Shown here one piece after another: positions 17,401 to 50,437 of a DNA stretch of 64,000 bases. The position numbers and the translations under genes are program-made. Each line of letters begins with the position of its first letter. Positions within the stretch are counted from its first letter, which is position 1. The notes beneath the pieces are model-generated. The model made no database searches, had not been told where the DNA came from, and saw only the letters and a program-made list of their open reading frames with translations. Location of the stretch: assembly GCA_963971405.1 (NCBI GenBank), contig OZ020489.1:36923047-36987046 (forward strand). Reading direction: 5' to 3'. This DNA is from Psococerastis gibbosa (taxonomy: Eukaryota > Arthropoda > Insecta > Psocodea > Psocidae).

Positions 17401-20400
17401 ATTTGCTCCTTCAATTGCTGCTGGTGCTGCTCAGCTTTGCTGAGGATTAACCGCAATTTCTTTTCTTCCTCGCCGTTCATGCTCTTCTCATTCATAGGAC
17501 AAACAGAACTTAGGTAGTCGACTAACGCGGTATGCTCGCCTGGCCGAAACCTTCGACCTCTTCCTTGAGAATACAGCCATTCTGATTTAAGCCTATTACA
17601 AAAAAATACATGTTCCATTCTTCATAATTATCATTATCTGCCATCAGCCTGGGCTTATTATTTAGTCATACATACATTGTATTGTTGTTGTATTGTAAAT
17701 TATGTATCAATGAATCCATATTCTAAATATTGTGTAATTTTTTGGAGGAATATATTTCACTTTACTTTTACTTTACTTACTTATTATTCTCTTCGGATCA
17801 TTCAGCACTTCCTCCGTTTCCATTCTCACACTGCTCTTATTTAACAAAGGGTTAGTTGGACTTTCATTGCCTGCTGCCTTAATAGGGCAGTGGTCGAGTG
17901 GTTAGAGAGCTTGCATTTCAATCGGGAGAACGGTAGTTTGAATCCTCAAGGCATCGGGTTCACTCAATAATTCAGGGTAGAATACAAGAGCAATTAGGAC
18001 TAAACCATCAGTCCTTCTAAGGCCTAAGCCTGATGATGGGCGTAGCACCCATCCACTCCCGAAACGTCACCGTTCCCATGACCACCCTAGGAGACTGTCT
18101 GTAATGGCTATTAACACAGCAGGGAATGCAAGTCCAACTAACCATTACCATGATGGTTGTGTAATAAATGCATATAAACTAAAGCAGAAACATGAAGAAT
18201 AATTTATAGCATTTACCTTACTTTTTTCTGGACCTGGGACTGGGTCTGCCGTGGCGTTTAAAGAATAACTGATGCGGGAATAAGATTCAGTCACGACATA
18301 TAGGACTCCCGACTGTCACCCGATAGGTTGTTGGTTCGAGTCCCACACTTCCTACATTTTCTGGCCATGCTTCGGAGGGCATGCAAAACAGGGGGTCCCG
18401 GGCCTTCCAGTCTAGTGTAAGTGAGGGCTTTATAGCACTAACTCCGCTGGGTTTCGCTTAGTAATAGAACAAAAAGTTATTATTAATTACTCGTAAATTA
18501 TTCTAAATAAACCCTAATAAATGTAACTTTTCTTACGGGAGATGGAATGTAGAATAAATTAATATTACAGGTTAATGGGAGGCACGTAAGGAATATTATG
18601 TCTCCCACCGTTCCAGTTAATATATTTCTATGAATTTAACACTGGTATTAAAATGGTTTAAATTATTCCCGGGGTCAGTTATTCTTTAAATGCAATGATA
18701 GGCCTGCTGACATTTTACTAATCGTTTTTAAATGGAATTAGATGAGCGTCAAAAGATACTTACGACTCTAACGGATCCAAAGCTAGTCCATCGATTACTG
18801 ACAGGTTTAAGCACCAAATTTTGAGGAACGGCCTATAATTGAAGTTACTGAAGAAACGTTGGATAAAGAAAATATGAATAATAGATGCATAGACTTACAG
18901 CTCAAAGTGGCCAAAAAACTAATCAAATTAATCATGCAAAATTCCTTCTGTAGCATAGTTGATAGTTTGCTCGTACTTGTGCGAGTCTCTAAACACCACG
19001 TGATTTGAGAACAGTCTTAACTCAACACAATTATTACCTACAAAGCCGACTGAAGAGGTAATATGGATATATTCATTAAATTCTTTGTATACACTTTTGT
19101 TATTGTTTTTTTTAGGGCGCGAGGCATACTGCGCCATGACTAATTAAGGTTATGCGAGATGGTTGTGAAATAAGGGGTTTCATATTAGGTAGTCATATAA
19201 GTCATTATAATAAAAGTTGGATAAAAAATATTATTTGTATGTAGGGCCTATATGTATTTGTATTGATAACGTGACTTAATGTTTATGACTTGCAATTAGG
19301 CGGGTATTCCACATACGTACATCGTCAATGAAAATAATGAAATTGAAGGACATTTCAAGTTTACTCTATGCCTTTGTTAAAATTGATCAATGATCAATTG
19401 ATCATAGAGCAAAATCACAAACAAACAAGTTAACAAACTAAAATTAAAAAATGGCGTCATGACATGGGATATGTCAAGTGTGTCAAGTACAATTATTTTA
19501 ATTGATTTTTTTTTTAAAAACAGTTTTCATCCATTAAACAGATCGGTGAAGGTCGATCTTACTTCGGATCGGATCTCTTAGGGGGGTATTCCACATACGT
19601 ACAACGTCAATGAAAATTATGAAATTGATGGTGGCAGCAGACATTTTTACATACTAAAAATTCTGCTGCCACCATCAATTTCATAATTTTCATTGACGTT
19701 GTACGTATGTGGAATGGGGGCCTTACTATTATTAGGTTTTATTAAAAAGTATAAGTGAACGAAGAAAACAAATACAAACAAAATTTCAAAAAACAAATGC
19801 AAACAAATTTCAAAAATTTGGCGCATACGTTTCAATAGAAAATTGTCAATTTTTGAAAAAAAAAACATGTGGAATGGCCGCCATCAATGAAAAATTGAAA
19901 TGTCCTTCAATTTCATAATTTTCATTGACGATGCACGTATGTGGAATACCCGCCTTATACTTGTTTTTATTTTAAGTTGTATCTGCTCACTTGAGAATGA
20001 CAATTTGGCGAAACCGGCCGTGACATTATTTTTTATATGTTTTTTGGATAAATTTCTTATCAAGTCAACTTTTATTATAACGTGTTCGAAATATTACCAA
20101 GTTACAAAGGAGACTACTTTATATATTAGGACTTTGAAGTGTTAGTGTACTGGAGAAAGGCTAAAAGTGAGATGGCATTGTTGCTAGTGTCATCTCCCAG
20201 GATTAATGGGAGTGTGGATTTTATAGTGTACATTGTACGGACAGTCTAGTAGGCAGTGATGTGTCTCCGAATAGGCGGACCACGCGTACGCCAAGGGCGG
20301 AACATTTTTGGGATAAATTAATTATCTATTTTTGGTGTAGGCCCCATAAAATTAAAAGTTAAATAAATAATTTTGAGTTATTGAAACGGACACTACGCAG

Positions 20401-23400
20401 CGGCAGCTGGCAGCAGCTGAAAGTCCATATAAGGTACCATTCCACCGACCGGCTAGGGCTATTTACAAAAACAGTGACGTGGTAGCAGGCTTTTAAGACT
20501 TAGGCGGGGTTTCCACCAACCTCGCATTGCAGAATTGATGGAAATGTTTATTTTCCTCTAGGCCATAGTTAAAATTGATCAATGATCATACAGTAAAATC
20601 ACAAACAAACAAACTAAAATTAAAAAATGGCGTCATGGGATATGTTAAGTACAAACATTTTAATAGATTTCTATAAAAAGAAAAATTCTAATTTCCGTCA
20701 ATGTCATTTGCATTCTGCAATGCGAAGTCGGTGGAAACGCCACCAAAGTCTTGAATGTCTGCTACCACGTCACCGTTTTTGTAAATAGCCCTAGCCGGTC
20801 GGTGGAATGGGCGCCTAAGTGCCATTAATGCACAAATCAATCTAGTCATAGAAATAAAGTATATATTGTAGAGTGCGCGTCATGGCGGTTAACTCCCACA
20901 TTGCTTACATCGAAGTTGTTCATCTACCCTCAGAAAGGATGGGGGTTACATAAACTGAATGTCGGTAGAGAGACGGCTCGAACGACCGCAGCCCTGGTTA
21001 CTGGGCATGGTTTGTTCAGAGCCCACATGGCCAAATTGGGTCATGAAGGTCCTACCATCTGCCGGCACTGCAATGAGTCTGACGAAACCGCGGAGCACGT
21101 GGTTGGGCACTATCCAGCCCTGTCGCGGGCGCGGTCGGACTATTTTGGGGCTGCCTACATCGACCAAGTCAATCTGATTGACTTGCCATTGAAGGACATG
21201 GTTGTCTTCGTTAACAAGGTTAAGCTGCTGTTTTTCAACAGCTAATTAATTGGCTAAGGGCATAGTTTGAATGATTGGGATGTGATCCCAATAATTATGC
21301 TGTTCAAAGGGTCCCCAGACCTATGTCAGCTCAACCCTCTAAATAATAATAATAATAATAGAGTGCGCGTCGAACGTGATTGTCGCAGAACTTGTTAAAA
21401 GCAAGAATTAAAAAGATCCATAAGGAGGGGCAAACTTCGCTAGCTATAGGCGGCAGCTATTTAAAAGCGCCCCTACTGTTAGGTCGGGCAATCTGGGAGT
21501 ATGAGTGCACGGTAAGTAGACAAGCACATGGCTTGAATTGGGGCCGTAGGTCTTTGCTAATTAGGCATGAGTGAGTATACGATTTATTGTTATTCATTAA
21601 CAACACATAGTACTGTTGAGACAAATTATAGGCTCATTAGCTAACGGATATGTTTTGAGTTGGAGTGAAGAAAATATTATGGTAGTAAGGCGCCCATTCC
21701 ACCGAGCGGCTAGGGCTATTTACAAAAACGGTGACGTGGTAGCAGACATTCACGACTTAGGTGGCGTTTCCACCGACCTCGCATTGCAGAATGCAAATGA
21801 CATTGACGGAAATTAGAAGTTTTCTTTTTATAGAAATCTATTAAAATGTTTGTTCTTAACATATCCCATGACGCCATTTTTTTAATTTTAGTTTGTTTGT
21901 GATTTTACGGTATGATCATTGATCAATTTTAACTATGGCATAGAGGAAAATAAACATTTCCGTCAATTCTGCAATGCGAGGTCGGTGGAAACCCCGTCTT
22001 GAATGTCTGCTACCACGTCACCGTTTTTGTAAATAGCCCTAGCCGGTCGGTGGAATGGGCGCCTTAATGGACCTAATACTTCTTTTGGACGTGTTCAGTT
22101 TCGGAAACTACGTAACAGTAAGGCTAAGCTGATTTTTCTGATTGTACCAAAATAATAGATGGGCCTATCAGATAAGTCTGAAAAGGATACGGTCTTCCTT
22201 GAGGGCATTCCAAACATGGGTTTCCCAGCATTGTCAATTCTCTCAAATTGGCGAGACTTTCAAGCCGTGAGATTTCGGTAAGATCAGCAATACTGTTATC
22301 ACTGAGAGTAAGCACCTCGAGACTAGTCGGTAAATTTTTTTCGCAATTTCTTAAATGTGACAAGTGGTTCTTATGTAGAAACAATTCCTGAAAAAGAATC
22401 ATAGCCTTACTTACTTACTAGCCAACGCCCACCCTTGGCATGTCGGCCATTTGGTGACGCGCCGACCAGTAGCGACGGGCGAATTATAGCCTAACAATAA
22501 AAACAAATAAGAAAATGACATAGTACGCTATCATGAGTTGTTCAAGAGTAGCCCTTTAATACGTCCAACTTTAAATCAGAATAATAGCGAACATGTTTTC
22601 CTTCCTTTCAATGATTAATTGATTTAAGTTTCATTTAAAAGTTAAACCACTAAAAAACCTCAATGGTTAGTGCCCTTTTTGCCCATGCCGTCATCTGAAG
22701 AGTGCAATGGAATACAGTAGTTGGATTAGGATTAGGGCATTTTTAAGGACCTATGCCTACTTTACTGGGCCACTGAACCTTTCCCTTTTTCGGACTTACT
22801 TTACTTTTACTTTTTCGTGTCCGAGAGATGGAGACTAGGCGAATCTTTGGGTCCAGTGCTGTGCCGTCTTGACGCCAGCTTCAGTGCAATTCCAAAGGTC
22901 GTCCAGTGTACAGTTGGCCGGGCACAGGGTGCACTGCAGCAGGTCATTTTTTCGGACATTATTGGCATTGTGTTTGGCATGAATTTTAATCCCTGGCAAA
23001 CAGGTAGACGTCCCCCCTACAGGCTACAAACGACAATGGACAAGCTGGAACATGCCTACCACTGACACAAAGTAACAACCGTGAGCGTGACTTATTCGGG
23101 TACGAGTCATGAAACATGAAACAACAGAAAGTTTTGAGTCCTCTATACTAGTGTAGGCGGCTCACTTTGAGGTAGAATGAATAAGATATTGAGGATAAAA
23201 TATACGGTATTTCTTTAAATCGTTCCATGACTCACGTTTTAGCTATACAATAAGTATGAGTCTCACCAAGACTCGTATCTGTTCTTGGTTAAGTCATGCT
23301 TAAGCCGGCCGCCTTACCAAGTTGAATCCAGCGGACCAGAGCAGGTTCAAAGATGCTGATAACTTGGTAGTGTGCACAGTGCCGGTAGGGAAACATGGTA

Positions 23401-33105: not shown

Positions 33106-33269
33106 GTGTCGCCCAAGGCTACCTGTTAGAACGACAGCTACGGCAAAATTACACCGATTGATAAAAAAAAACGCCATGTGTTCCCGAGCTAGAAGTCAAC
33201 AAAGTTACTTACAGTGCATTGTATGTTCATTTAATTTTACAACGTCTCTTTACCTAAACCCAAACAATT

Positions 33270-33951
33270 TTTTCCCTTTCTTGGCGTGAATATTTGAATC
33301 TGATTGTTTCTCATGTAGTAGTTCTAAAAATTCATGGTTATCAGTCCTGGTAGCCACATGCAATGCTGTTTCGCCATCATTATTTTGGGCATTACGATCA
33401 GCTCCAAACACAAGCAATATTTTAGCTGCACATATCATTATATCCATATTTAGCTATTCTTATCAACGGTGTATCTCCTTCTGCATCCTTAGCGTTAATA
33501 TATTCTGAAAAACCTTGTGGGTCTATAACTTTTATGTTTTTTAGTAGAAATGTTACTACTTTCTCATTATTATTAGTGATCACTGCTTTATGTAGTGCAG
33601 TATGGTCGCAGTGCCTCGCAAGGACATCAGCACCATTTTTTACAAGAAATTTTATTACATCCAAATGTTTCCAGTAAGCAGAAGCAGACAGCGGTGTATC
33701 GCCATTTTTGTCCACAGTATTAATGTCAGCTCCTTTTTTAACAAGAGTTATACAGAGTTACGCTGGCCCCAGAGCCCTTCTGCCGCTCCCCCTCACTCTG
33801 CAACACCTGCTGGGAAATGACGAGAAGGTAACCTCTCTCGTCATAAAATTTCTAATGTCAACCTCCCTCTTCGGAACACTCTGAGAAGGGTTGGGTTTGG
33901 CGCGATAACAACATGAGCGCGGAAGCCCAAAACGGGCAGAGCGCCTAGCAT

Positions 33952-33991
<40 letters not shown>

Positions 33992-34307
33992 AACAAGAAA
34001 TTTTACTACATCCAAGTCTCCTCGTCGGGCTGCCAAAAAGACCGGTGTCTCATTAAATGTAGTTTTTGCATTAACATCAGCGCCTATTTCAACAAGAAAC
34101 TTTATTACATCAAATCTTCTATATTGGGCAGCCTGGTGCAGCGGCGCTTCCCCATTCTCATTATTTGCGTTGACATCGACGCCTTTTGCAATAAGGAGTT
34201 TTACGGTATCAAACTCTCTATCAAGTGCAGCCGTGTGCAGAAGTGTCACTTCATGCTCAGTCAATATATTAACATCGGCGCCTTTTTCAATTTTGCTCTC
34301 TATATAC
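33270..34307 (-). pseudogene. ANK-A: truncated, interrupted ankyrin-repeat gene
   Basis: The minus strand encodes ankyrin repeats such as APLHQAAQYRRFDVIKFLVE and ETALHVATRTDNHEFLELLH, in separate frames. The exon start at 34307 follows a TTTTTACAG acceptor like those of ANK-B and ANK-C. A LINE end is inserted at 33747-33989, and the homology to ANK-B stops near 33285, before the C-terminal end that ANK-B has. Flanking DNA at 34560-34800 resembles the ANK-B upstream region. It is a paralogue that has decayed; function unlikely. Confidence 0.75.
33747..33989 (+). mobile_element. LINE 3' end with poly(A), inserted in ANK-A
   Basis: 243 bp ending in about 33 A. Encodes PLPLTLQHLLGNDEKVTSLV, similar in plan to the LINE tip at 38190-38620. 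Flanked by TTAACAAGA at 33738-33746 and 33990-33998, a perfect 9-bp target duplication, and it splits the ankyrin reading frame of ANK-A. Confidence 0.8.
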
Positions 34308-34559
34308 CTGTAAAAACATAACGCAGCTTAAGATATCTTCCGGAAGGCTTACTAGTGTAGTTTTTTGAAATTAAATTAAATACGAAAAGCCCATTGGCTA
34401 ATTAATAGGCTGCTAATTAGTCACTTGTAATCTTATAATGTATGTATATATACAGTATATTACCCACTCAAACTTTAGAATGGAAATAGCTTTTATTCTA
34501 AAACACTGGCCTAAATCCTATAACATTGCTCAAATCATAGCCTAATGGAAAAATAAATA

Positions 34560-34800
34560 CTTACTCTTCGTTGCCTTCTTCAAAAGTTCTTCACAAAACT
34601 CAGATGACAATTAAAACCATCAACTGCGTATTATAGTAAATACATATGCAGGTTGTCTAGATAACTGAGGAGGAAAATGCAATCAAACAGATATGAAACT
34701 GCAAGTGACTTGCCACTTCTGCCATTGCACTTGCCGCAAGTGTTTATTGATTGGCACTATCGACAACGATAGGCCTTTTTGAAAATGATGTCATTGATGT
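34560..34800 (-). promoter_or_regulatory. ANK-A upstream segment, duplicated with the gene
   Basis: Read on the minus strand: TTGTCATCTGAGTTTTGTG, then a GTAAGT donor at about 34563. Farther up lies AACACTTGCGGCAAGTGCAA and a TCGTTGTCGATAGTGCCAAT block. The counterpart at ANK-B has the same TTGTCATCTGAGTTTTG and a related ATCGTTGTTGATAGTACTTA at 41080. Likely promoter and first exon of the ancestral gene. Confidence 0.45.
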
Positions 34801-35307
34801 CTAGTATAAAAAAATCCCTTTCGGCTCTGGCCGATCAGGAGTAGGGAGATTCCGCAGACCCTGCTTTTCCTCTGCGCTACTTAAGCTATGTATTTAATAA
34901 AAAATAAAAAATGCTTCATTATTTTCCCGACCACAACATCAACACACGAAACACTCTTGTGTCCCAAATTTCGAACGTCCATGCCGACTATGATCTTTTA
35001 TTTATCAAATTATTATCACTTTGACTGGATGCCATCTTAAAATGGTTGATTTGTCGTAAAAAGTGGTAATTACCATTATCATAGATAATAATACGGACTT
35101 TCAGTCAGACTTTAATTCATTCCTCTGCGACCAATATTAACTGAGATATGAATTATACAAGGTTTCAATCGGCCGCCATCTTGTAACTAAATTGTGGATG
35201 TAGCTGGTTAACGAACTCGATCAAGACATTTGTATGATCAATTTTTGTGCCAAGTTTCATCAAAATCGGATAATATTTACGAAGTTAGAGTGTTTCCTAA
35301 AATCGAT

Positions 35308-35338
<31 letters not shown>

Positions 35339-35971
35339 CATATTACATTTTGAACGGAGGGTGGTTTTAGGCTGGGGGTCATGAAATGAAAAGCTGTGAA
35401 GAAATTTTCCGAATGTCGAACATTGGTCGCCATCTCAATAGGTAGATGAATCTCCCTAAAGACTGGATATGACATCAATTACATAATTAATCGATTAGGA
35501 GACTGGTGGTCTTGGTTGTTGCTCGATACGGAAGTGGGCTTGTTATATTAATTAATCGTATTGCAAATAAGTACCGGTAGAAACCCTATTTTCATGGGAA
35601 GGAATAATGCTCAGGGCTGCAGGCTTTTCCAGAGAATTCTCGTAGTATTAGCGATGGATTCGGTCCCTAGTTTTGGTCAGGCCAGGAATGGGCTGTAAAG
35701 TTGCACTATGCGAATGTACTTAACAATCGAATGGGCATAAATTCAAATTTATGGTTCACAAACAAATAAGTAATCTGGTCACGTGTTCCAAAATGGCACG
35801 ATCTAAAACCTGCATTAGACCTAAAATCATGTTTTCCCTGCGCTTTCCTATTCATAGCCTTTGATAGTATACGCTGAATGATTTTTAAGAATGATTTATT
35901 TCCAAATCTTATACAATGCATTATAGTAAAATAAAAACATTTTTCCCCATGCCCCGTGGGCTACGCTCTTT

Positions 35972-38900
35972 TTAGGGGGCACTGGATGTAAAGCTGTCTT
36001 TAAAAATTTCCTTGAAGCAACTCCATAATTGTTTTAGGTTCTTATTTTCTGGATCATGGTCCAGCTTCTCTTTAGCTACATCTAGGCATGTTTTTCCATT
36101 GCTGTCTCGTATATTGAAATCTGCTTGTTTGTCTAGTAGTAGTAGTACAAATTCTTGATAAACGCCTTTGGTGGCCCAATGCAATGCTGTTTCGCCATTA
36201 TTATTCTGTGCGTTATAGTCAGCTCCATACCCAAGTAATATTTTAGCTGCACACACCATTCCACCCTCAGCTGCCCACATCAATGGTGTATCTCCTTCTG
36301 TATCCTTCGCGTTAATATGTTCGGAAAAACTTTGTGAATCTTTCTCTTTTATTTTTTCCAATACAAATGTTATTATTTCCTCATCATTACTATGTGCTGC
36401 TCGATGGAGTACAGTATCATGTCTGTTTCTCGCAAGGATATCAGCCCCTATTTTAACAAGGAATTTTACCACATCCAAGTTTCCCCCATAAGCAGACATG
36501 TGGAGTGGAGTGGTGGTTGTCCCATCGGAAGCTTTCGTATCGACATTACCGCCTTTCTCGACAAGGAATTTTACTACATCTAAGTTTCCAGTGTACGCAG
36601 ACATGTTTAATGATGTATGTCCGTGATTGCAAACAGCATTAATATCAGCTCCATTTTCAACGAGGAATTTTACTAAATCTATTTGTTCTCCATAGCAAGC
36701 TATGTGCAGGGGTGTTTCTCCATCCTGATCCCTTATGTTAACATCCGTGCTTTTTTCGAGTAGGAATTTTATTAAATCCATGTTTCCAAGCTTGGCAGCC
36801 ACGTGTAGCGGTGATACTTCATACACATTTTTTATATTGACATCCGCGCCTTTTTCAACGAAGAATTTTACTAAATCAATTTTTTCTCTATAACAAGCTA
36901 TGTACAGGGGTGTTACTCCATCCTTATTCTTAATATTAACATCCATGCTTTTTTCAAGTAGGAATTTTATTAAATCCAAGTCTCCAAACTTGGCAGCCAT
37001 GTGTAGCGGCGTTTCTCCATGCACACACTTTATATTGACATCCGCACCTTTTTCAACGAGAACTTGTACTACATCCAAATTTCCCAACTCAACGGCCGTA
37101 TGTAGCGGCGTTTCTTCATACCAATTTTTTATATTGACATCCGCGCCGCTTTCAACGAGGACTTTTACTACATCCAAATTTCCAATTTGAGCAGCCACGT
37201 ATAGCGGCGCGTTTTCACCCCCATTATTATTCAAATCTGCGCCATTTTTGACGAGGAATTTTACGACGTCTGTGTGTCCATTGCGGGCAGCCATAAGCAG
37301 CGGAGTTTCTTCATCCTTATCCTTTGTATTTACATTCGCACATTTTTCAACAAGGAATATTACCATATCCAAATGTCCGTTGCCAGCAGCCACGAGCAGT
37401 GGTGTCTTTCCATCATCAGTCTCCGTATTTACATCCGCGCATTTGTCAACTAGAAGTTTTACAATATCAAAATGTCCGTTACGAGCTGCCATAACCAGTG
37501 GTGTATTTCCATCGACCAAAGCATTAGCATCAGTACCTTTTTCGTCCAATAAGTATTTTACTATATCCAAATGTCCACTTTCAGCAGCTACGTTCAGTGG
37601 TGTCGATCCATTTTCGTTGATGCCATTAACCTCGGCTCCTTTTGCAACAAGGGATTTCACTTCATCCAAATTTCCTTTCAAAGCAGCTATGTGCATCAGC
37701 ATATCTATTTGGTTTCTAGTTTCTTCAGTCCCTATTTGGCTTTCTATACCTGTAAAAATACAACGATGCTTTAGATATCTTCCAAAAGGATCACTAGTGC
37801 TTAGTGTTTTGTAAGCAAACCTCATAATGGTTGGACTAATTTGAATGATCTTTGATTTGCTGGATTCACCTCTGCCCCCATTATTGCCTATTATACATTA
37901 AAATATCCGAATAATAAATAAAATAAAAAAAATAAATTCAACAAAGAACTGAAACAACGTCAGTCAAACCACCCTTTTCGAACATTTTCCTATTATTTTG
38001 AGTTTGTTTTGGTATAGAGCTCTGAATATACGGGCATTATTACTCCGCCATAATGGTGAGAAATGACTTGAAAAAAAATGCAACCATCATGGGACATATA
38101 AAGTTGGACCTCCTTGCAAATTAACGGCTATTTTTTTCATGAAGTTCTGATTCAATTCGATAAAACAAAGCAACAAATTACGACTATAAAAATCTAATCC
38201 GATCACACATTACCAAGTCATGGCAAGAAAACTGGGCCGATCCAGCAAAAGGCTTAACAAAACTTTTTTATGTTAAGCTGGACCACAGCAGCCCGAAACA
38301 TCCGACACGAGGAAGTTGTCATGGCGCGGCTACGTCTGGGCCACACACGGCTCACACATGGCTTTCTGACTCCCGTCATTATGCCACTGTGGTGCAGAAA
38401 ACACAGTTGCCCACATCCTTGTCGAATGCCAAAACCTCACCCACCACAGAACCTGGCCCCCACAAACATCCCTCTCAACCCTACTACGTGACGACGAAAC
38501 CGCTACTCGAACTATCCTCTCATTTTTGACTACTACGAACCTCATCAACCTCCTATAATATCCAGAAACTGAGAAAAGTAACTTACATGAACGAACCTAA
38601 CCTACCGTACCTAACCAAATAATATACCTGAGCGTGTATATATACGGCATTGCGCCAAAAAAAAAAAAAAAAATCGATAAAACAATGTATAGAGGCATCA
38701 TTCCTTTATAGAATTCAGAAATGAATGCTATGTGCCTATATCATTTTCAGCTAGGTGCGAATTATTGCAATCTCGGATGTCTATATTTGCCGGACTATAC
38801 TCTAAATATAAAGCTGGCCATTCACGAGGGCTCCAAACGGACTCGTGCCAAGTCAAATGGTGCGTCCTGTTCTATTTCACGTTAGCACCATTTAGAGGGG

Positions 38901-39868
38901 TCATCACGACTACGCTGAACCAGTCGCTCCAAATCTTTCAAATTGTACAGTGTGACGATGTGGAAGAGGTACTTTTACCCTGTACAATTTGAAAGATTTG
39001 GAAGGACTGGTTTAGTGTAGTCGTGATGACCCCTCTAAATGGCGCTAACACCAAATGGAACAGGACTTGGCTTGGCGCGAGTCTGTTTGCAGCCCTCGTG
39101 AATGGCCAGCTTTGAAGATATCATTTTTCGGATTCCAATTTTGTTAGTTCTGTTATTGCATATTTTTCTAAGAAAATTTAGCACAGTAGTGCATATTGTT
39201 TTTTACACCATCGGAAAGTAGAGATTTTAACGGACAAAAAGCCCACCAACTTAAAAAAAAAATCTATATTTTGACATGAGATTTTTCGATAGAAATTTTT
39301 ATAAAAATGTTTAGTCAAGAAAAAATAAATATTTTAAATCAAAAAAATTACTGTGTACCGGTATTTAGAATTTAAAAAGGTAAGTTTTCAACCAATTTCG
39401 TGATTTTTTTTTTTTGTAAAAGATATAAAATTTATAAATAAATAACCAAATACTTGGTTTTTTGCATTTTAAATTTTGCGGTTAATACTAAATTTTAAAA
39501 TAATTTATAATTTATAATAATAATTTATAATTATAAATTTTAAGTTAAATACTACAGTTGTAGATCTTATTACCTACATTTTTGCTATTTAGCGTTTTTC
39601 CATAGGACTTGTAGTTTTGCCGGAAATCAAGATACAGTATGCCGTATATCACCCTTAAAAACTCACCCCCACCTACTTCCCGACCTCAGATCGCCCGTAA
39701 TTTTTCTTTCATTTTTATCATATTATCTTCCATTTCCAATGGGTTTCATCCTACTGTAATTTGATGTCACTTCTTACCATTTTTAAAGGGGTCTACCCTG
39801 GACTAGCCTATATGTGACATTGTACTAATCATAGACTAAATGAGAAAAAACTTACTCATCTGTTGCAT
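35972..39868 (-). CDS. ANK-B: intact ankyrin-repeat protein, two-exon model
   Basis: Exon 2 (37749-35972) follows a TATTTTTACAG acceptor and encodes about 17 ankyrin repeats of 33 residues, for example ETPLHTAVELGNLDVVQVLV and GDTPLMWAAEGGMVCAAKIL, ending LDHDPENKNLKQLWSCFKE and a short Ser-rich tail. I propose exon 1 as 39868-39856, ATGCAACAGATGA before a perfect GTAAGT donor. The phase fits and the total is 1791 nt, 596 residues. Without splicing, the frame could also start at the ATG at 37825. No signal peptide, membrane segment or other domain is seen, so a binding scaffold is all that can be said. Intron 1 holds a LINE end and a foldback. Paralogues: ANK-A and ANK-C. Confidence 0.8.
38190..38620 (+). 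mobile_element. LINE 3' end (I-like) in the ANK-B intron
   Basis: Frames encode RHEEVVMARLRLGHTRLTHG, the typical segment after RNase H in I-clade LINEs, and near the end LSTLLRDDETATRTILSFL. A tail of repeated CCTAAC-like units follows. More than one frame is needed, so it is decayed. Confidence 0.65.
38810..39113. mobile_element. Foldback element with about 130-bp arms
   Basis: AAAGCTGGCCATTCACGAGG at the left pairs with CCTCGTGAATGGCCAGCTTT at the right. The arms continue through ATTTAGAGGGGTCATCACGA and CTGTACAATTTGAAAGATTT, meeting near 38965. Non-coding, inside the ANK-B intron. Positions 39114-39830 are very AT-rich with no feature seen. Confidence 0.85.
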
Positions 39869-40284
39869 ATTTCTTATGTATATATACTTCAGCAGCAAAA
39901 CTCAGATGACAATTAACACTGAAAAATTGAGATCTATGGGGCATAATAAATACGGGGGGTGGTCCAGAATTTCTAGCTTAGAAAGTGAATTGAATTGGGC
40001 TTTACTACAGCCGATAGCATTCTACGTCTCTAACGGTAATTTAGGTTCACAGGACCTAAAGAACTACCAAGGCATCACTTACAAGTATTGTGGAGAAAAT
40101 TCATTGCTTACTTCAGTCAACACCTGTCCTTGGCTGATTGGACGCCGTACCGCGTAGTACAGTAATGTCTTTCCCTCCTGCGTTTTAGCTAGATTTTCTG
40201 CGTCCAGACCGCTCCAGGTCAGGAGCCTTTTCCTTCCATATTATTGCAGTATTATATGAAGTATATAACACTGACTTATAAATT

Positions 40285-40530
40285 AACTTTTGGTTGAAGA
40301 GGCAACCTCCACGTTAATTATAACTGAACTTCGGTTGGATAGTTGTGTAGCTGTGCTAACCTGTCTAACATTACGAATCATGTCAAAATACGAGCATATA
40401 AGTAGAGAATATTCATTAGCTGTTCTTGTGCGGGCTTGTGGTCGAGCGGTTAAGACGACGCCCCGGTTTGGCGTAGATCGTGGGTTCTAATCCCGCCAAG
40501 TCTAGTTCTTATTTATCCTCTAATTTCAGC
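40285..40530. mobile_element. tRNA-derived SINE (S1), inverted pair of pieces
   Basis: The plus-strand piece at 40430-40530 has GGTCGAGCGGTTAAGACGAC and GTGGGTTCTAATCCCGCCAA, and stops within the body after TATCCTCTAATTTCAG. A reversed tail piece (GGTTGAAGAGGCAACCTCC) lies at 40292. The cloverleaf is followed by a SINE body, so this is not a tRNA gene. Confidence 0.65.
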
Positions 40531-40959
40531 CTTTTCCTTCTCCTTGGAAGCATAGGGGACATTTCTGCAAGGTGTGGTCTTTCCGTAACAATCATTTCCC
40601 GAAGGCAATATGAGCAGAGCAATTCACGGACCCCTGCAAATTTGGTACGCCAAACTTCTGGGAGCCCCATTGTCTGCCAAACGTGTATTTACAGGTTTGT
40701 CAGGCTGGCATTGTGGAAGATTGCTTTGAAACTATAGTCCTCTGTAATGACTTCGAATAGACCCAAGCCATTATTTAATGCAGCTGCAGTCGAAGAAATC
40801 ACCAGGGAGTAGATTATTTGGGACCTTGAACCTTATTTTATTCGTAGGGGACAGAAAGTTAACATACACAGTTTGTAGCTGAGCCTAGGTGCAATTCAGA
40901 AAGAACGCACTAAAATATAAGGTAAGCTTTATTTTTTAGCAGTTTTCCTTCTGTGCTAA

Positions 40960-41115
40960 GCTATGGAATTATGGACCGCCCCTCGTATATGCAACCTAGA
41001 TAACTGAGCAGGCAAGTACTGTCAGCCCGATAACAAACTGCATTGGTAGAAGTAGCAAGCGTTTATTGATAAGTACTATCAACAACGATTGACCTTTTTG
41101 ACAATGATGTTATTC
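40960..41115 (-). repeat. ANK-B upstream segment shared with ANK-A
   Basis: On the minus strand it has GTTGATAGTACTTATCAATA, CGCTTGCTACTTCTACC and CAGTTATCTAGGTTGC, like 34650-34790 upstream of ANK-A. About 1 kb of other sequence (39910-40960, including SINE pieces) separates it from exon 1, so the ANK-B upstream region has been expanded by insertion. Confidence 0.5.
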
Positions 41116-41127
41116 GTGCATGTTCCT

Positions 41128-41450
41128 TTACTTTACTTTATCCAACGCCCGAACGTGGTAGTTCAACCATTCGTCGCCGAGCTTCCCAATAGCGGTTCAC
41201 CAAGTCATCGTTCGGGTAGGTGAGAGCCGTGCAGTCCCTCAGGTGGTCTTCGTCCATTCTTCCACCGTGACATAGTGGACATGTGTCATCGGCGGCAAGG
41301 CCAATGCGGTGTAGGTGGGCCTGAAGGTTGTCATGGCCGGTATTGAGGCGGAGTCTAGCAACAGCTTCAGCTCTCTCAAGGTTCCTACAGATGGGTCCCA
41401 CTGTAGCAAGATTCTCCCACTTTTTGCCAGTGCATGTTCCAAGTCGTGCC
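41128..41450 (-). mobile_element. LINE 3' end, same family as 43424-45818
   Basis: Encodes ARLRLNTGHDNLQAHLHRIG, CPLCHGGRMDEDHLRDC and YWEARRRMVELPRSGVG, then stop and an AAAGTAAAGTAAAGG tail. 5'-truncated. Confidence 0.8.
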
Positions 41451-41504
41451 GATGATTATAAAAAAGTGAACCTTTTGCTTTTACTGACTATGGTGTCATT
41501 TGCT

Positions 41505-41893
41505 AAGGTGCCCATTCCATTGACCGGCTAGGGCTATTTCCAAAAACAGTGACGTGGTAGCAGACATTCAAGACTTAGGTGGGGTTTCCACCGACCTCGC
41601 ATTGCAGAATTGACGGAAATGTTTATTTTCCTCTATGCCATAATTAAAATTGATCAATGATCATACAGTAAAATCACAAACAAACAAACTAAAATTAAAA
41701 AATGGCGTCATGGGATATGTTAAGTACAAACATTTTAATAGATTTCTATAAAAAGAAAAATTCTAATTTCCGTCAATGTCATTTGCATTCTGCAATGCGA
41801 GATCGGTGTAAACGGAACCTAAGTCTTGAATGTCTGCTACCACGTCACTGTTTTTGGAAATAGCCCTAGCCGGTCAATGGAATGGGCGCCTTA
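41505..41893. mobile_element. Composite foldback MITE, family A, copy 3
   Basis: Ends AAGGTGCCCATTCCATTGAC and GTCAATGGAATGGGCGCCTT, inner pair from TTAGGTGGGGTTTCCACC, same core and orientation as copy 1. It lies between ANK-B and the nested LINE. Confidence 0.8.
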
Positions 41894-41999
41894 TTGATTT
41901 GCAAGTGCGCTATCTAGCTTGATTATTCGAATGAAAGAACAATTTAAACTTTAATAACACTTGTTATGGATGCCATGTATGCTACATGGCCAGTGGCGT

Positions 42000-42420
42000 A
42001 GCCAAGGGAGGAGGGGGTCAGCTGGGTCCATATTTATTTCAAAAAATTCCCCGGTGAGACACCGGTCCCCCTGTTTCCAGTTTTGTTAATAAAGTTATCG
42101 TATGCAAAATTAAAATCTTTTTGCCGGCAAACTTTTTCAGGCCTATCTTTTAAAAAATATTCCCCGGGGTATCCCCCGGGGCCCCCTTGTTAGCTGTAAT
42201 ATTCTTCCCTTGTAAAATATAAACATAACTGCTTTCAAGTTCGTAAATTCCAACTAGACCCCCGGGCCCCCCTTTCTTGAACTAGGTCTACTATTCTTCA
42301 GCTGTAAACCCTAAACATTATTAGAATACGTTACAATAAGACGTATATACATCAAAATGTGTAAAACTCCCCCCCACTTCGACCTCCCGACCCCTCGAGT
42401 GAGGAAATTAAAATCATGAC
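42000..42420. repeat. Low-complexity G/C-run repeat
   Basis: Stretch with TTCCCCGGTGAGAC, TTCCCCGGGGTATCCCCCGG and several C runs. Similar in style to the tandem units at 12380-12900. No gene seen. Confidence 0.4.
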
Positions 42421-42483
42421 CATGGGGGTGGGGGGCGCCAAATGAAACAACACCCCAGTCGAAAACCTATCGTAAGAGGGGAA

Positions 42484-42895
42484 ACTTTATGTATTGATGT
42501 TACATGAAAACTGGGGGAAAAAAATTCTGGCTGTATTTGGCGCTGAGTGTTGGCACGTGCGAAAACTCGAAGAGGAAATGACCCACGTAGCGGAGATGAG
42601 GATGCTGCGGAGGACATGCAGAAACGAGTACATTCGGGAAGAATTGCGAACAACGGACGTGGTGCAAAAACTAAGAGGGAAGAGGCTCAGCTGTGGGGAC
42701 ACGTGCAGAGGAGAGAGGCATCAGTGCTAAGCGCAGAGTGGGAGATGCGATGGTACCTGGACGCTGAGCACGTGGACGCCTAAAGCTCACCATGGAGAGA
42801 AAATTATTAGCGAAATGCAAGAAACCGGGCTCACAAGGGAGGACAAGCAAGACATAACCGTCTGGAAACACCGCAGCTCTGCCGCCGACTCTCCA
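42484..42895 (+). mobile_element. LINE C-terminal remnant, decayed
   Basis: Overlapping frames give EEMTHVAEMRMLRRTCRNEY, ELRTTDVVQKLRGKRLS and WGHVQRREASV. This is the end of an RTE-like reverse transcriptase polyprotein, in more than one frame. It abuts family C at 42900. Confidence 0.55.
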
Positions 42896-42899
42896 CGAG

Positions 42900-45800
42900 G
42901 AAACGGCGCGGAAAAAAGGAAAAGAACCGGTCCGAGTTTACTCGAACATGCTTTCCAATTTATCGATTAGTAGAGAGAGAAAATGATTAATTTCATGGTA
43001 AATAATTTTCCTATGGTTACATTTCGGATATCACGGGGGGGGGGGGGGGGGGGGTCGTCCACCACCTGAAGGTGACTTAAATTCTAGATAGGTCAGGCCT
43101 ACACATTACCACACAGCAATAATGGCAGGTCACGCAATGCATTTGAGCGTGAATTTGCTTTCATTTTTTCAAAAAAAAAATTTTTTTTGCACAAAACCCA
43201 ATAGTTGTTTGGAAACCAAACTATCCGGTTTCATTACTCAATTTAACACCTAAAACATGCTTGAAGTTAGAAATCATCGATAGAAAGGTTTCGCAGAAAA
43301 ATTATTTTTTAGTCATTTTTCATTAAAATTTAGTCATTTTTATTTTTTTACCCCCAGAAGCAAACTATCAAGGGGCAAGCGACCCCCCGCATTTTATCAA
43401 CATTAACAACAACTACAATATATATCTATGATGCATACAACATCTCCGAACTAAAACAAGCTATTTCTGCACTCAAAACCGGCAAAAGCTGCGGCCCAGA
43501 TGACATTTTCCCTGAACTCATAACGCACCTTGGAAACAACGCAATGAAGGTTCTTCTTTCAGCAATAAACCAAACCTGGCAAGCTGGTATCCCCGATATA
43601 TGGAGGAAGGCAGAAATTATACCGATCGCCAAGAAAGGAAAAGACCCCAGCTCCGTGAAAAGCTATCGACCAATTAGTCTCACATCCGTACTATGCAAGG
43701 TGACGGAAAGAATGGTCAACAACCGACTGTTGGAATACCTTGACCGCCATCAAGTGATCGAGCCGGAGCAAGCAGGCTTCCGCAAACACATGTCCACTAC
43801 AGACCAGATCGTCAAACTGACCCAGTACGTTAAAGATGGATTCCACAGAAAAATGACCACACTCACCTGTTTCGTTGATTTTCAAGGGGCGTACGACACT
43901 GTCAACAGAAAAATCCTCATGAACAAAGTTGCTAAATACGGCGTGCGTGGCAACATGCTACGATGGCTCTCCAGCTTTTTATCGCAAAGGCTAGTGAAGG
44001 TCCGATACGGCAGCAAGTCCTCTCGCTACCGCCAACAGAAAAGAGGCCTTCCCCAAGGCGCCGTACTCAGCTGTGCGCTTTTTAATGTGATGATCAATGA
44101 TCTCATCACCGAGCTGAAGAAGATACCTGGCATCCAAGCCCTGTGCTACGCCGACGACCTCACAATATGGGCAACTAGCAGTGACGTACAAGCCCTAGAG
44201 AACGCCATGAACGAAGCACTCCGGCGACTCCACTCGTGGTGCTCTGAAAATGACATGATAGTCAACAAAGACAAAACAACGGCCCAGATCTTCACTATGT
44301 CCACCAAAGACCATAACGTCGAACTTTCTTTTGACGCAGAACCGCTTGAAGTTGTCCAAATGACTAAGTACCTAGGTGTAACCCTAGACAAAAAGTTAAG
44401 CTGGTCCAGTCATATCGAAAGCGTTGCAGAGAAGGCCACGAAGAGGTTATGCATACTCCGAAGGCTTACCGGTACGACCTGGGGAGCTTCCCAAGACGTT
44501 TTGGCGGCCACCTACAAGACGTACATCAGACCCCTACTAGAATATGGCAGTGAAGCCTACTCAACGGCCAGTGAAGCCTCAAAAAAGAAATTGGATTCAG
44601 TTCAAAACAACGCGTTGCGTATTGTGTGCGGAGCAGCGTTCTCAACACCTATCACGGCGCTAGAAACACATACCCTCACCGAACCACTACCGGCCCGCCG
44701 CGACAAAGCCACCCTAAAATTCTTCGAGCGTGCACGAAGAGTCGGGAATTTTTGGGAAATGTACCGCACCGCAAATGCCAGGCTGAAAACCCAAACTACG
44801 CCACTGCAGCAAGCGTTAGAACTTCAGCAAAAGTACCAAATTGACCACGGCGAACGTCAGCCTTTTCTAAGACCCCAAATACCAAAAGTTACACCAGAAA
44901 TACCTGTTAATCTGACTCTTCCTGGTGTCTCAGATCATAAAACGGACGTCCCACAAGCCCTCCTCAAATCAGCAGCGCTGGGTATGCTAGCGACTACTTA
45001 CCCATCCACCGAGTGGACCCACATGTACACTGACGGATCAGCAATGGGAGAAAACAGCGGTGCCGGCTTTCACACTCTCTCACAAGGCTCATTCTCAGTC
45101 GGCCTACGCAGAACGAACTTTGATGGGGAGGTTGCTGCAATATACCACGCGGCGGAGAAAATCCGGGATTACGCAGCCACCAAGAAAGTCGTATTCCTAT
45201 CAGACTCCACCTCGGCAATCCAAGCAATATCATCTGCTGCCGCGCAGGAAAGCGACCTTGTGGCGAAATGCAGGGAGGCGCTGCACTTGCTCCAGGCCAA
45301 CACAGAGCTATGCTTGCAGTGGGTACCAGGACACTGCGACCTGTACGGCAATGAGCGCGCTGACAGACTCGCGAAAGCTGGCTGCGAGCTACCGCAAGAA
45401 ATCTCACCCACCAGCTACCATGCCTCGTGCAACCTAATCACCCAAGCCATCAATAGAGCCGTGAGAACATCCTGGCAAGCAGCTGCTGCTGGTAAAAGAT
45501 GGGAAATGACCATCGGGTCAAACTCCATCCCCAGTGGACTGCCAAGGGACGTCGCGGTCGCTACCTTCAGGATGGCGACCGGCCATGACTACCTCCAGGG
45601 CCACCTGCACAGAATGGGCCTCGCAGAATCTCCAATCTGCCCCCTCTGTAACGAGGCCGAGGGTACGGCCGACCACCTGCCCAACTGCAGTGCTCTGGAC
45701 ATTGATGACGACGACGATGAAGACTCCTCCTTGCAGCAACAGTCAAAACTCTACTGGGCGACACGGCGTCTGATGGCAGAAATGTCAAGGACGGGCGTTG

Positions 45801-46165
45801 GATGAGTAAGAGTAAGAGTACAATATATGTGGATTTAAAAGAAATCGTTGGAGCCGTTTTTGAGAAATAATTTTTTTATACGTTTTTTTGAAGTTTTTTG
45901 AAAATAAAAACCCCCTAAATTGAGTTAGCCCGAAATAAAAGAAATGATCCCGAGGTATGATTTTTGTGAACCTACATGCCAAATTTCATCAAAATCGACC
46001 GAGTAGTTTGCCCGGAAATCGATCGACGCACAGACAGACAGACAGACATTTCGTAAAAACCACTTTTTTGGGTTCCTGGGACCTCAAAACGTGTAAATCC
46101 GTTGAAATCTCGGAATCGAAAATTTCGACCGTCACAAAGCTTTCCTTATACTACGTATAAATTGG
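42900..46165 (-). repeat. Family C dispersed repeat split by a LINE
   Basis: Reverse-strand copy. The 3' part (42930-43413) and the 5' part (45829-46165) match 6715-5995 in order, and the 2.4-kb LINE at 43424-45818 sits between them. A G-run lies near 43040. The two halves rejoin exactly at the duplicated TACAATATAT. Confidence 0.75.
43424..45818 (+). mobile_element. 5'-truncated LINE with open RT-RNase H frame (I/Jockey-like)
   Basis: Open from 43427 to the stop at 45803-45805 (about 790 codons). Reverse transcriptase motifs in order: SYRPISLTSVLCKVTER, FVDFQGAYDTVNR, RGLPQGAVLSCALFNVMIND, CYADDLTIWA (catalytic YADD) and TKYLGVTLDKKLSWSSHI. RNase H follows: MYTDGSAMGENSGAGF, DGEVAAIYHA, FLSDSTSAIQ, GNERADRLAKAG, so its D-E-D-D residues are present. 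Then a Cys/His cluster CPLCNEAEGTADHLPNC and the end YWATRRLMAEMSRTGVG. The endonuclease part is missing. Target duplication TACAATATAT at 43414-43423 and 45819-45828; tail GAGTAAGAGTAAGAG. Confidence 0.9.
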
Positions 46166-46460
46166 AAAGCAAAAAAGAAAGATCACTTGTCATGGACCTG
46201 CCGCCTATGGCTTTATGGGATTATTACAATGCCGGGGTTTATTTTTTAGTACCACATCTGAGCCACAGAATACTATAATGTATAAACTATGGTCGAAACC
46301 TCCTACCCCCCCCCCCCCCCCCCTGATAAATATACCTTATCTTAGTGCATTTTTTTCAATGATAGGTCTCATTTAATAGAACTAATCCATGAATTTACAT
46401 GTTTTATTTCTACTAAGTACTTTTAAAGATTTTTTCCCCTCCACATCTTCATTTCAATAT

Positions 46461-47591
46461 AAATTCACATGAGGCAGCTCAATAATTGTTTTAAGTTCTC
46501 ACTTTCTGGATCATGGTCCAGCTTCTCTTTAGCTTAATCTAGACAAGTTTGTCCATTACTGTCTTGAATATTTGAATTAGCTTGTTTTTCTAGTAGCAGT
46601 TGTTCAAACTCCTACTCGAAAACCATTGTTTATATATGGCAACGGACGATTCTCGCAGTCCCGATTTGCCGCCGTCTTTTAAAATTCTAATGAAGAAACT
46701 CCATAATTGTTTTAGGTCCTCATTTTCTGGATCATGGTCCAGCTTCTCTTTAGCTTAATCTAGACAAGTTTGTCCATTACTGTCTTGAATATTTGAATTA
46801 GCTTGTTTTTCTAGTAGCAGTTGTTCAAACTCCTACTCCAAAACCATTGTTTATATGTGGCAACGGACGATTCTCGCAGTCCCGATTTGCCGCCGTCTTT
46901 TAAAATTCTAATGAAGCAACTCCATAATTGTTTTAGGTCCTCATTTTCTGGATCATGGTCCAGCTTCTCTTTAACTTAATCTAGACAAGTTTGTCCATTA
47001 CTGTCTTGAATATTTGAATTAGCTTGTTTTTCTAGTAGCAGTTGTTCAAACTCCTACTCCAAAACCATTGTTTATATATGGCAATGGACGATTCTCGCAG
47101 TCCCGATTTGCCGCCGTCTTTTAAAATTCTAATGAAGCAACTCCATAATTGTTTTAGGTCCTCATTTTCTGGATCATGGTCCAGCTTCTCTTTAACTTAA
47201 TCTAGACAAGTTTGTCCATTACTGTCTTGAATATTTGAATTAGCTTGTTTTTCTAGTAGCAGTTGTTCAAACTCCTACTCCAAAACCATTGTTTATATGT
47301 GGCAACGGACGATTCTCGCAGTCCCGATTTGCCGCCGTCTTTTAAAATTCTAATGAAGCAACTCCATAATTGTTTTAGGTCCTCATTTTCTGGATCATGG
47401 TCCAGCTTCTCTTTAGCCTAATCTAGACAAGTTTGTCCATTACTGTCTTGAATATTTGAATTAGCTTGTTTTTCTAGTAGCAGTTGTTCAAACTCCTACT
47501 CGAAAACCATTGTTTATATATGGCAATTGCTTTAAGATAAGGCCCAGTACACACGAACTATTCTCGCAGTCCCGATTTGCCGCCGTCTTTT
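46461..47591 (-). repeat. Tandem array: five extra copies of the ANK-C 3' end, 221-bp period
   Basis: The unit beginning AAAATTCTAATGAAGCAACT recurs at 46681, 46902, 47123 and 47344 (spacing exactly 221), with one diverged unit before (46461). The spacing to the gene's own end at 47592 is 248. Each unit carries the codons for LDHDPENEDLKQL and DSNGQTCLD of ANK-C, on the same strand, followed by about 90 bp of other sequence (CAACGGACGATTCTCGCAGT). The units are nearly the same as each other. They have in-frame stops relative to ANK-C, so they are not an added protein domain. Confidence 0.85.
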
Positions 47592-47596
47592 AAAAT

Positions 47597-50437
47597 TCAC
47601 TTGAAACAACTCAATAATTGCTTTAGGTCCTCATTTTCTGGATCATGGTCCAACTTCTCTTTAGCTAAATCTAGACAAGTTTGTCCATTACTGTCTTGAA
47701 TATTGGAATTAGCCTGTTTTTCTAGTAGCAGTTGTACAAATTGTTGATAGCCCGCTTTCGTAGCCCAATGCAATGCTGTTTCGCCATCATTATTTTGTGC
47801 GTTAAGGTCAGCTCCATTCGTAAGTAAAATTTTAGCTGCACATATCTTTCCACTCTCAGCTGCCCACATCAATGGTGTATCTCCTTCTGTATCCTTAGCG
47901 TTAATATGTTCGGAAAGGCATTGCGGATCTTTCTCTTTTATTTTTTCTAATACCAAAGTTATTGCTTCCTCATTATTACTGTATACTGCATGATGGAGTA
48001 CAGTATCATGTCTATTTCTCACAAGGACGTCAGCGCCTTTATCTAAAAGGAATTTTATAACAGCCATGTCTCCTGCTGAAGCAGAAGCAGTCAGCGGTGT
48101 ATAACCATTATTGTCGGTATCATAAATGTCAGCGCCTTTTTCTTCTATAAAGTATTTTACTATACCCAAATTTCCGCCGAGAACAGCCACATAGACATGC
48201 GTCATTCCATGTATAGTTTTAGTATTAACGTCAGCACCATTTTCAACGAGGAATTCTACCATATCCAATTTGCCCGAGAAAGCTGAAGTGGCCAGCAGTG
48301 TAATTCCATCTTTCTCCTTAACATTAATATCAGCGCCTTTTTCAACAAGGAATTTGACTGCATCCAAGTCTCCTCGGAGGGCAGCGACGTAGACGGGTGT
48401 CTTTCCATCTCTAGTTTTAGCATTAACATCAGCACCTCTTTCAATAAGGAATTTTACTATATTCAACTGTCCAAATTGAACAGCCACGTGCAGCGGTGTT
48501 TCTCCATCGTTATTGTTTGTATGAACGTCCGCGCCATTTTCAACTAGGAATTTTACGATACCCAAATGTCCACAGAGAGCAGCAGCATGAAGCGGTGTTA
48601 CTTCATCCCCAGTCTTTATATTAACATCAGCGCCTATTTCGACAAGGAATTTTACTACATTCATGTTTCCCCGGTAAGCAGCCATGTATACAGGTGTCGT
48701 CCCATCTTTCGCCTTGGCATTGGCGTTACCACCTATTTCAACAAGAAATTTTACTACATCCCAGTGTCCTCGATAAGCAGCTTTGTGGAGTGATGTCTCC
48801 CCATCTTTCGTCTTAGCATTGATGTTAGCTCCTTTTTCGGCAAGGTACTCAACCACATCTAATTTACCAGCAGAAGCAGAAGCGATCATCTGAGTATTTC
48901 CATAATCGTCAATAGCATTAATATCGGCACCTCTTTCTTCTATAAAATATTTTACAATATCCATATGGCCACCATAAGCAGCCATACAGGCCTGTGCTGT
49001 TCCATCATTATTCTTAGCATTAATGACATCGCCATTTTCGAGGAGGAATTTTACTATGTCCAATTTCCCAGTGTAAACAGAAGCGGTCAGTGGTGTATTT
49101 CCATCTTAGTCCACTATATTTATGTCGGCGCCTTTTTCAACGAGAAATTTTACTACATCCAAGTTTCCCGAGGAGGTAGCATTGTAGACTGGCGTCTCTT
49201 GGTCTTTGGTCCTTGCATTAACATCAGCGCCACTTTCAACAAGGTATGTGACTAAATCCAATTTTCCAGTGTGAGCTGACGCGGTCAGTGGTGTGTCTCC
49301 ATCTTCATCAATAGCATTAATATCAGCGAAATTCTCAACAAGTAATTTTACTATATCCAAGTTTCCACTGTACGAAGCCTCATGCAGAGGTGTCCATTTA
49401 TCCCCTGTTTTTATATTAACATCCGCGCCTTTTTCAACGAGGAATTTAATCACTTCCAATTTTCCTAACTTTAACGCCACGAGTAGTGGCGTTTCTTCGT
49501 CCTCAATTTCTATATTGACAGCCGCGCCTTTCTCTACGAGGAATTTTACTACATCAAAATTGCCAGTAGAAGCAGCCACGTGCAGTGGCGTCTGATCGTC
49601 CTTAGTTTTAAGATTGACATCGAGGCCTTTTTCAACAAGTAATTTTACTGTATCAAAATGCCCATGCTGCGTAGCCATGTGCAAAATCGTCTGTTCATCC
49701 TCAGTCGTTATGTTAATATCGGCGCATTTTTCAACAAGATATTTCAATATATCCCAATTTTCTCTGTAAGCAGCACAGTGGAATGATGTCCACCCGTCTC
49801 AGTCCTTAGCATTAACATCAACGCCCTTTTCAACAAGGTATTCTACTACGTCCAATTTGCCAGAGAATGCAGAAGCGGCCAGCGGTGTAATTCCATTTTT
49901 GTCCGTAGCATTAATATCAGCACCCTTTTCATCTATAAAGTATTTCACAATATTCAAGTTTCCGTCGCGAGCAGCCAAGTAGACCGGCGTCATTCCATCA
50001 AAAGCCTTAACATTGACATCAGCGCCCTTTTCAACAATGATTTTTACTACATCCAAGTTTTTACCGGCTGCAGCCCAATGTACAGGCATCGTCCCTTCAT
50101 TGTTTTTAGCATTAATATCAGCGCAATTTTTAATTAGGAACTCTACTACATCAAATTTTCCAGCAGAAGCAGCACCTGCCAGTGGTGTATTTCCTGCCCC
50201 TTAACATTAACATCAGTGCCTTTATCTTCCAATAAGTATTTCACTATATCCAAATGTCCACTTTCAGCAGCCACATACAGCGGTGTCGATCCTTCTTCGT
50301 TCATAACATTAACGTCACCACCGTCTTCAGCAAGGGATTTCACTGCGTCCAAGTTTCCACTCAAGACAGCCTGCTGCAACATCGAACCAAATTGGTGTAT
50401 GAACTCGTTCATTTTTTTTTTTTTTTGCTTTTTGTAC
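47597..50437 (-). pseudogene. ANK-C: long ankyrin-repeat gene, interrupted
   Basis: Ankyrin repeats run across four open blocks (50437-50146, 50089-49799, 49747-49106, 49063-47597), the last three in one frame and the first in another. Examples: TPLHVAASTGNFDVVKFLVE and VTPLHAAALCGHLGIVKFLV. The last block alone has about 488 codons and ends LKQLLSCFK. The exon start follows a TATTTCCAG acceptor as in ANK-B. At about 28 repeats it is longer than ANK-B. It is either a recently broken gene or one with sequence errors; the repeats between blocks stay in register, which favours recent loss. Confidence 0.7.

Follow-up and report, generated by a model that had tools for sequence, protein, structure and literature searches.

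The window analyzed here, a 64,000-nucleotide stretch of DNA from Psococerastis gibbosa, contains three composite elements of ~380 bp, in each of which, as read directly, an inner inverted pair lies at one shared place within an outer inverted pair. The composites and two related elements are as follows.

20433-20815, + strand: composite copy 1, class A; flanks TAA (20430-20432) and TAA (20816-20818)
20433-20502, + strand: left outer arm of copy 1
20503-20744, + strand: inner element of copy 1
20745-20815, - strand: right outer arm of copy 1
21689-22063, - strand: composite copy 2, class A, in the opposite direction; flanks TAA/TTA
21760 to ~21996, - strand: inner element of copy 2 (end approximate: small deletion at the right inner junction)
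41507-41890, + strand: composite copy 3, class A; flanks TAA/TTA
41578-41819, + strand: inner element of copy 3
19299-19954, + strand: single-TIR relative of the inner element, with the core in common; flanks TTA/TTA; interrupted by the short foldback at 19581-19722
19581-19722, + strand: short foldback, solo relative of the outer element, with GTGGCAGCAGACATT arm; flanks TTA/TTA

Within each composite, two complementary outer arms of ~70 bp enclose an inner element of ~240 bp that has its own tips. Copies 1 and 3 match as direct repeats, at 95% over 300 nt. Copy 2 lies in the opposite orientation, and the range 20431-22066 comprises copies 1 and 2 plus the ~870 bp separating them. No open reading frame of at least 130 aa overlaps any of the three copies, which have the features of MITEs, i.e., they are short and noncoding, with inverted ends, many copies, and a target duplication. 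Foldback (FB) elements have long inverted repeats composed of many internal subrepeats; the arms here measure ~70 bp and carry one extra tip each. The reverse nesting is present at 19299-19954, where an outer-type foldback lies inside a relative of the inner element; the 40 best-scored copies of this foldback (window copy included) are 99-100% identical, so that it looks very recent. Elsewhere in the window, we noted by eye three related clusters of 99-nt units reading as ankyrin-type repeats (33267-50487) and a 753-aa open frame resembling a LINE reverse transcriptase with RNase H (43544-45805), as well as a tandem array of 221-bp units (46461-47644), in which 4 of the 5 listed copies are at least 96% alike.

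Pattern counts across the 409-Mb genome allowed up to 3 mismatches, with the reversed sequence as the control. The outer 20-mer gave 23,473 matches (control, 6), the inner 28-mer 29,085 (control, 0), and the outer/inner junction 23,615 (control, 0). Set against these controls, the nesting is far beyond chance, and the three copies with one inverted pair inside another that the sequence-only reading had described are real, by direct reading as well as genome-wide. Halving the junction count gives an estimate of ~11,800 composites, near 1% of the genome. The 40 scored best among 1,162 candidate matches of copy 3 are 97-100% identical to it, the 100% being copy 3 itself. We rejected the idea that the excess of inner over outer tips (29,085 versus 23,473) represents thousands of inner-only elements: 28 loci with an exact inner tip (8 plus 20, a nonrandom sample, since 7 of the 20 had been chosen for having no exact junction listed) yielded no clean inner-only element and one element with a single outer arm (L060), the others being truncated or altered. 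The excess probably comes mostly from degenerate arms together with the tolerance of the pattern.

Agreement between the flanks was measured in 121 elements (131 found, 10 flanked by arms dropped) against 400 shuffles, over 36 position pairs out to 6 bases. It exceeded that of the shuffles at -3/+1, -2/+2, and -1/+3 (z 5.4, 5.3, and 2.9, respectively); the remaining 33 pairs ranged from -2.9 (-2/+5) to 2.8 (-4/+5), which places the weakest member of this 3-bp diagonal near noise. TWA was present on both sides in 85 of the 121 elements, being identical in 56 and differing in the middle base in 29. These 29 comprise 21 with TAA on the left and TTA on the right, and 8 with the reverse. As for a target preference beyond the 3 bp, the raw flank counts may be slightly skewed toward T and C at -6 (50 and 36 of 121, respectively) and toward A at +6 (51 of 121). 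The Mutator superfamily makes target duplications of about 9 bp. The long (~9 bp) duplication of tandem-TIR MULEs was not found here, where the duplication is 3 bp and pairs up to 6 bases out were examined, nor was the TA duplication of Tc1/mariner elements with IR/DR ends, 2-bp pairs showing no excess (z -1.8 and 0.8). The 3-bp TWA duplication is that of PIF/Harbinger (Tourist-like) MITEs; a length of 3 bp is typical of this superfamily (PMC2213677; PMC2836001). Together with the ends starting in GG, it points to PIF/Harbinger and suggests that the composite is an element of this type. Tourist-like PIF/Harbinger MITEs such as mPing are likewise short and noncoding with a 3-bp TAA/TTA duplication (PMC2836001), whereas the composite has doubled tips and a middle base that often differs between the two sides.

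The outer subterminal sequence has changed in both arms together, giving classes C, C', B1, B, and A, an order that we infer. The median divergence of the inner elements (A, 0.041; B, 0.059; B1, 0.060; C, 0.070) agrees with class A being the youngest, the remaining classes not being firmly ordered by it; the mean for B1 (0.101) is inflated by a single row, L111, taken in a second orientation. In the older-looking classes the outer tip reads TTAGGCGGGGTTTCCACCGACC and resembles the inner tip; in class A, i.e., that of the window, the outer tip is GGCGCCCATTCCACC, and the inner tips retain the older form or close variants of it. Two class-A copies (L057 and L066) have in common an extra GGTTCCACT-like stretch on one inner tip. 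The solo outer element and the inner element begin with an identical sequence of 49 bp (e.g., L128 versus the inner element of L133), making host and guest sister MITEs. The outer-arm core, matched exactly and followed by a loop of 8-38 bases, occurs as short foldbacks at 1,442 places in the genome. Eighteen of these were read. Both ends are visible in 15, which are short foldbacks whose ends resemble GG(N6)TTCCAC and whose subterminal sequence varies; the remaining three are without the right tip (L074), without the left tip (L078), or cut by the boundary of the sequence read (L084). Tip bases 3 to 8 are strongly variable in L074-L093 (GG, six variable bases, TTCCAC), and in some elements the two ends differ from each other in these bases.

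The perfect empty palindrome of the window-type outer element had no match in the genome with up to 3 mismatches, and the pre-insertion form was therefore sought in related classes. The class-C arm pattern has 4,136 matches in the genome (up to 3 mismatches), and 20 loci with an exact class-C arm were read (the first ten listed and ten from further down, including variant and tandem cases). Eight of the 20 are without an inner element (L114, L115, L118, L119, L121, L122, L128, and L132). These solo outer elements are 140-bp foldbacks with the loop CATTAATAAGTCTTG, which reads CATTAATAAGTCTTGAATGTC in the eight. The other 12 carry an inner element or its remnant at the same point of the loop (in L125 a second arm comes first). 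Full class-C copies read CATTAATAA(A)-GGCGGGG...CCCCGCC-TAAGTCTTG, i.e., the insertion is bounded by TAA on each side; the left junction of most filled copies has one A beyond a plain 3-bp TAA duplication, the fit being exact only in L116 among those read. The left loop half of class-C composites, CAGATATCATTAATAA, is absent from all class A or B copies parsed. Two loci have further rearrangements: in L129 the start of one class-C composite lies within another, and in L125 the left outer arm occurs twice in tandem, giving three tips in a row.

The comparison of empty and filled loops shows that an inner MITE of ~253 bp inserted in the loop of a 140-bp foldback MITE with the same first 49 bp, leaving TAA on each side. 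The composite was then copied as a unit, as its copy number shows, presumably by a transposase pairing both outer tips. In class C, the ATTAATAA half lies on one constant side of the core in all ten copies with distinguishable arms (L099, L112, L116, L120, L123, L124, L126, L127, L133, and L173); L130 has this half on both sides and is uninformative. One site and one core orientation in these ten copies argue for a single insertion. The proposal that the inner element inserted once in an ancestor and that the composite then spread is thus supported by the empty versus filled loop, the single site, and the single orientation. The solitary outer elements with an empty inner site that were predicted along with it exist in the older-looking sister class with the asymmetric loop (8 of 20 loci). 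No clean solo outer element with a class-A or class-B subterminal sequence was found with the empty-palindrome pattern or among outer pairs with a gap of 65-95 bases. Such pairs occur at 7 places, 5 of which (L009-L012 and L015) have inner-tip remnants or a GGGCG centre. In the other two (L013 and L014) the centre is altered and holds no remnant; excision or deletion could explain them, and they were not counted as empty sites.

The solo outer elements might instead be excision products of composites, which would make nesting the older state, and this reading needed testing, since excision of PIF/Harbinger MITEs is usually precise (PMC2836001). A subterminal marker separates the two groups, however: GCAAATGACATTGACG stands beside the arm core in all 8 solos, whereas all 15 composites compared (12 of the 20 class-C-arm loci plus L099, L112, and L173) are nearer to GCACATACGTTGACG. 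These solos are therefore not excision products of such composites, and we regard that origin as highly improbable. A further alternative is that the outer and inner pairs were never separate elements: in one complex element, replication slippage or recombination would have duplicated the terminal repeats in place and given IR/DR-like ends. It would account for the near identity of outer and inner tips in the older classes, tandem duplication of an arm does occur (L125), and slippage was considered for tandem-TIR MULEs (PMC3310237). Yet in solo outer elements the loop is unbroken precisely where composites carry the inner element, which has TAA on each side there, and inner-only elements exist (L097, L103, and L143); duplication in place is largely refuted by the empty loop and is, in our judgment, very unlikely. 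Neither inverted pair is confined to the company of the other, solo outer and inner-only elements having both been found.

Copies 1 and 2 have opposite cores, for which the sequence-only reading had offered either a flipping core or movement of whole elements in both directions. The second part holds: whole elements are inserted in either direction (21 plus and 19 minus among the best 40 of the 1,162 candidate matches of copy 3), so that the opposite cores need no flip. A core that flips within fixed arms would leave no visible trace in classes A and B; the ten copies with distinguishable arms are all of one orientation, and we give such flipping hardly any credence. The two loop halves are reverse complements of each other in classes B1, B, and A, and also in L063 and L144, whose tips are class-C-like; the left one is CATTCAAGACTTA and the right one TAAGTCTTGAATG. 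L130 has a right half complementary to its left, as if overwritten in the other direction. Either arm can thus apparently be rewritten from the other. We propose that the reverse complement of one arm replaced the loop half of the other arm and so made the arms of the later classes palindromic, with gene conversion or hairpin-crossing copying during transposition as candidate routes. The palindromic centre of the window class was not found without an inner element (0 matches, and only the 7 altered cases), as expected if overwriting followed insertion. Overwriting as a continuing process in settled copies was rejected, the identity between a copy's own arms not being above that between copies: in class A (n = 20), own left-right identity is 0.894, and between copies left-left is 0.901 and left-right 0.891; in class B (n = 14), the corresponding values are 0.918, 0.924, and 0.912.

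Exact inner tips beside TWA and not beside the arm GAC have 53 matches in the genome. Twenty of these have AGA ahead of TWA, and the 7 that were read are all composites with a shortened junction. The other 33 were all read and comprise 23 hemi elements, with an inner tip at one end and the opposite outer tip at the other, 3 inner-only elements (L097, L103, and L143), 5 composites in which the junction is altered or the matching tip is the outer one (L099, L100, L134, L135, and L136), and 2 without clear assignment (L095 and L096). The solitary inner elements that had been predicted alongside the solitary outer ones are thus present, at 3 of the 33 candidate tips. Seven tips of the GGYGGCG variant gave 3 further hemi elements (L170 and L172 with class-A arms, L173 with a class-C arm), 3 composites, and 1 fragment. 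With L060, L126, L127, and L133, the hemi elements examined number 30. Most measure 316-328 bp, and the inner-only elements 253 bp. The outer arms of hemi elements come from classes A, B, B1, and C, and in B and B1 the missing arm can be either one. Since L170 and L172 are hemi elements of class A, we abandoned the idea that outer tips of this class have lost pairing with inner ones.

Of these 33 elements (30 hemi, 3 inner-only), 25 have TWA at both flanks, and in 17 of them the two flanks match, an agreement that is weak by itself, since the search pattern had preselected TWA at the inner end for most of them. Among the 20 class-C-arm loci, where right ends were unselected, 3 of the 9 composites with a resolved right end (L125, L129, and L131 excluded) are hemi elements, two of them flanked by TAA on both sides. 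Random truncation or recombination, rather than use of the inner tips, could also generate hemi and inner-only elements, and would be compatible with a flank match in only 17 of 25 in a set preselected for TWA; however, the elements end exactly at the inner tip, and the set with unselected right ends gives the proportions just stated. We consider this origin unlikely. The signs are, rather, that inner tips still work as ends: the four tips would be alternative ends, with an inner tip occasionally paired with the opposite outer tip, yielding the three-tip hemi element, or with the other inner tip. Two points were absent from the sequence-only reading: outer and inner tips are ends of the same type, and inner tips apparently remain in use. 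In a tree of inner elements, hemi labels are scattered (e.g., 7 changes for 7 rows), and several independent hemi events are likely, although the strong branches force just one or two; support is low (6 of 82 inner branches strong). The tree holds 85 of 111 rows; a limit placed on L024-L053 removed 22 of the 30 loci nearly identical to copy 3, along with a few others. Its labels for L020 (in fact full) and for L094 and L108 (in fact hemi) were wrong and were set right by reading the sequences.

The composite is very probably, on this evidence, two sister MITEs, one nested in the other, which then spread, with overwriting of arms and with four tips that serve as alternative ends. Tc1/mariner transposons with IR/DR ends, e.g., Sleeping Beauty, have two direct copies of the end motif in each inverted repeat. 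Unlike these, the composite has a 3-bp rather than a TA duplication, and its inner motifs came with a separate element and seem still to act as ends. The closest published kind is the tandem-TIR MULEs of plants (Ferguson and Jiang 2012, PMC3310237), which have an external and an internal TIR in tandem at both ends and are copied as a unit; the same study reports three-TIR derivatives, with pairing of one external and one internal TIR suggested, 61 elements in tomato with at most 29 copies of one kind, and no duplication flanking the internal TIR, the origin being left open. Doubled end repeats copied as a unit and three-tip derivatives are thus shared features; differences are the thousands of copies, the 3-bp duplication, and the presence here of a pre-insertion relative's empty loop. 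The composite P-MITE AgaP2-P12 of Anopheles gambiae is built from two related families, one end from each, and is alike in this two-family makeup, but it is a hybrid and not one element inside another (PMC1562414). One program counted 20 of 17,651 rice MITEs as nested in larger elements (PMC6171319). Among the papers searched on nested MITEs and doubled TIRs, we found one close case, the tandem-TIR MULEs (PMC3310237).

The composite therefore belongs to a known kind (nested MITE, tandem TIR), and the record of how it arose is unusually full, with signs that all four tips are usable as ends. Among the papers searched on composite and nested MITEs and on nested, tandem, or additional TIRs, which do not take in the older plant work on nested MITEs, we found no report of an empty ancestor of a doubled-end element. 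Nesting of sister MITEs is very probably one way in which doubled-end transposons arise. The one close study found does not settle how DNA transposons gain doubled terminal repeats (PMC3310237). This genome offers (i) a pre-insertion relative; (ii) a TAA-bounded insertion point; (iii) asymmetric and overwritten arm intermediates; and (iv) natural inner-tip products. The question of doubled-end origin thereby becomes testable, with thousands of natural variants for mapping which ends the transposase pairs. Tentatively, and with more doubt than confidence, we raise the possibility that end doubling by nesting was a fitness step, in which four recognised tips, together with arms able to serve as each other's template, gave the composite greater mobility than its two parents had, and the outer tips diverged from the inner ones until outer-outer pairing prevailed. 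If this is true, the genome records the whole path, from the pre-insertion relative through a single insertion and the overwriting of arms to the switch of outer ends, with inner ends used from time to time.

A search for the PIF/Harbinger DDE domain (PF13359) gave 220 candidates in the genome, 150 of which were scored. This search, with 12 loci of one family read (L154-L165), did not find an autonomous partner transposon with the ends described here, and no ends of that family's own were seen in the stretches read. In the 12 loci, these tips are present just as a passenger MITE: a short MITE of this superfamily lies ~0.57 kb after the domain, at the same place in all 12, between TTA and TTA. 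The host is apparently an autonomous element carrying a nonautonomous passenger MITE.
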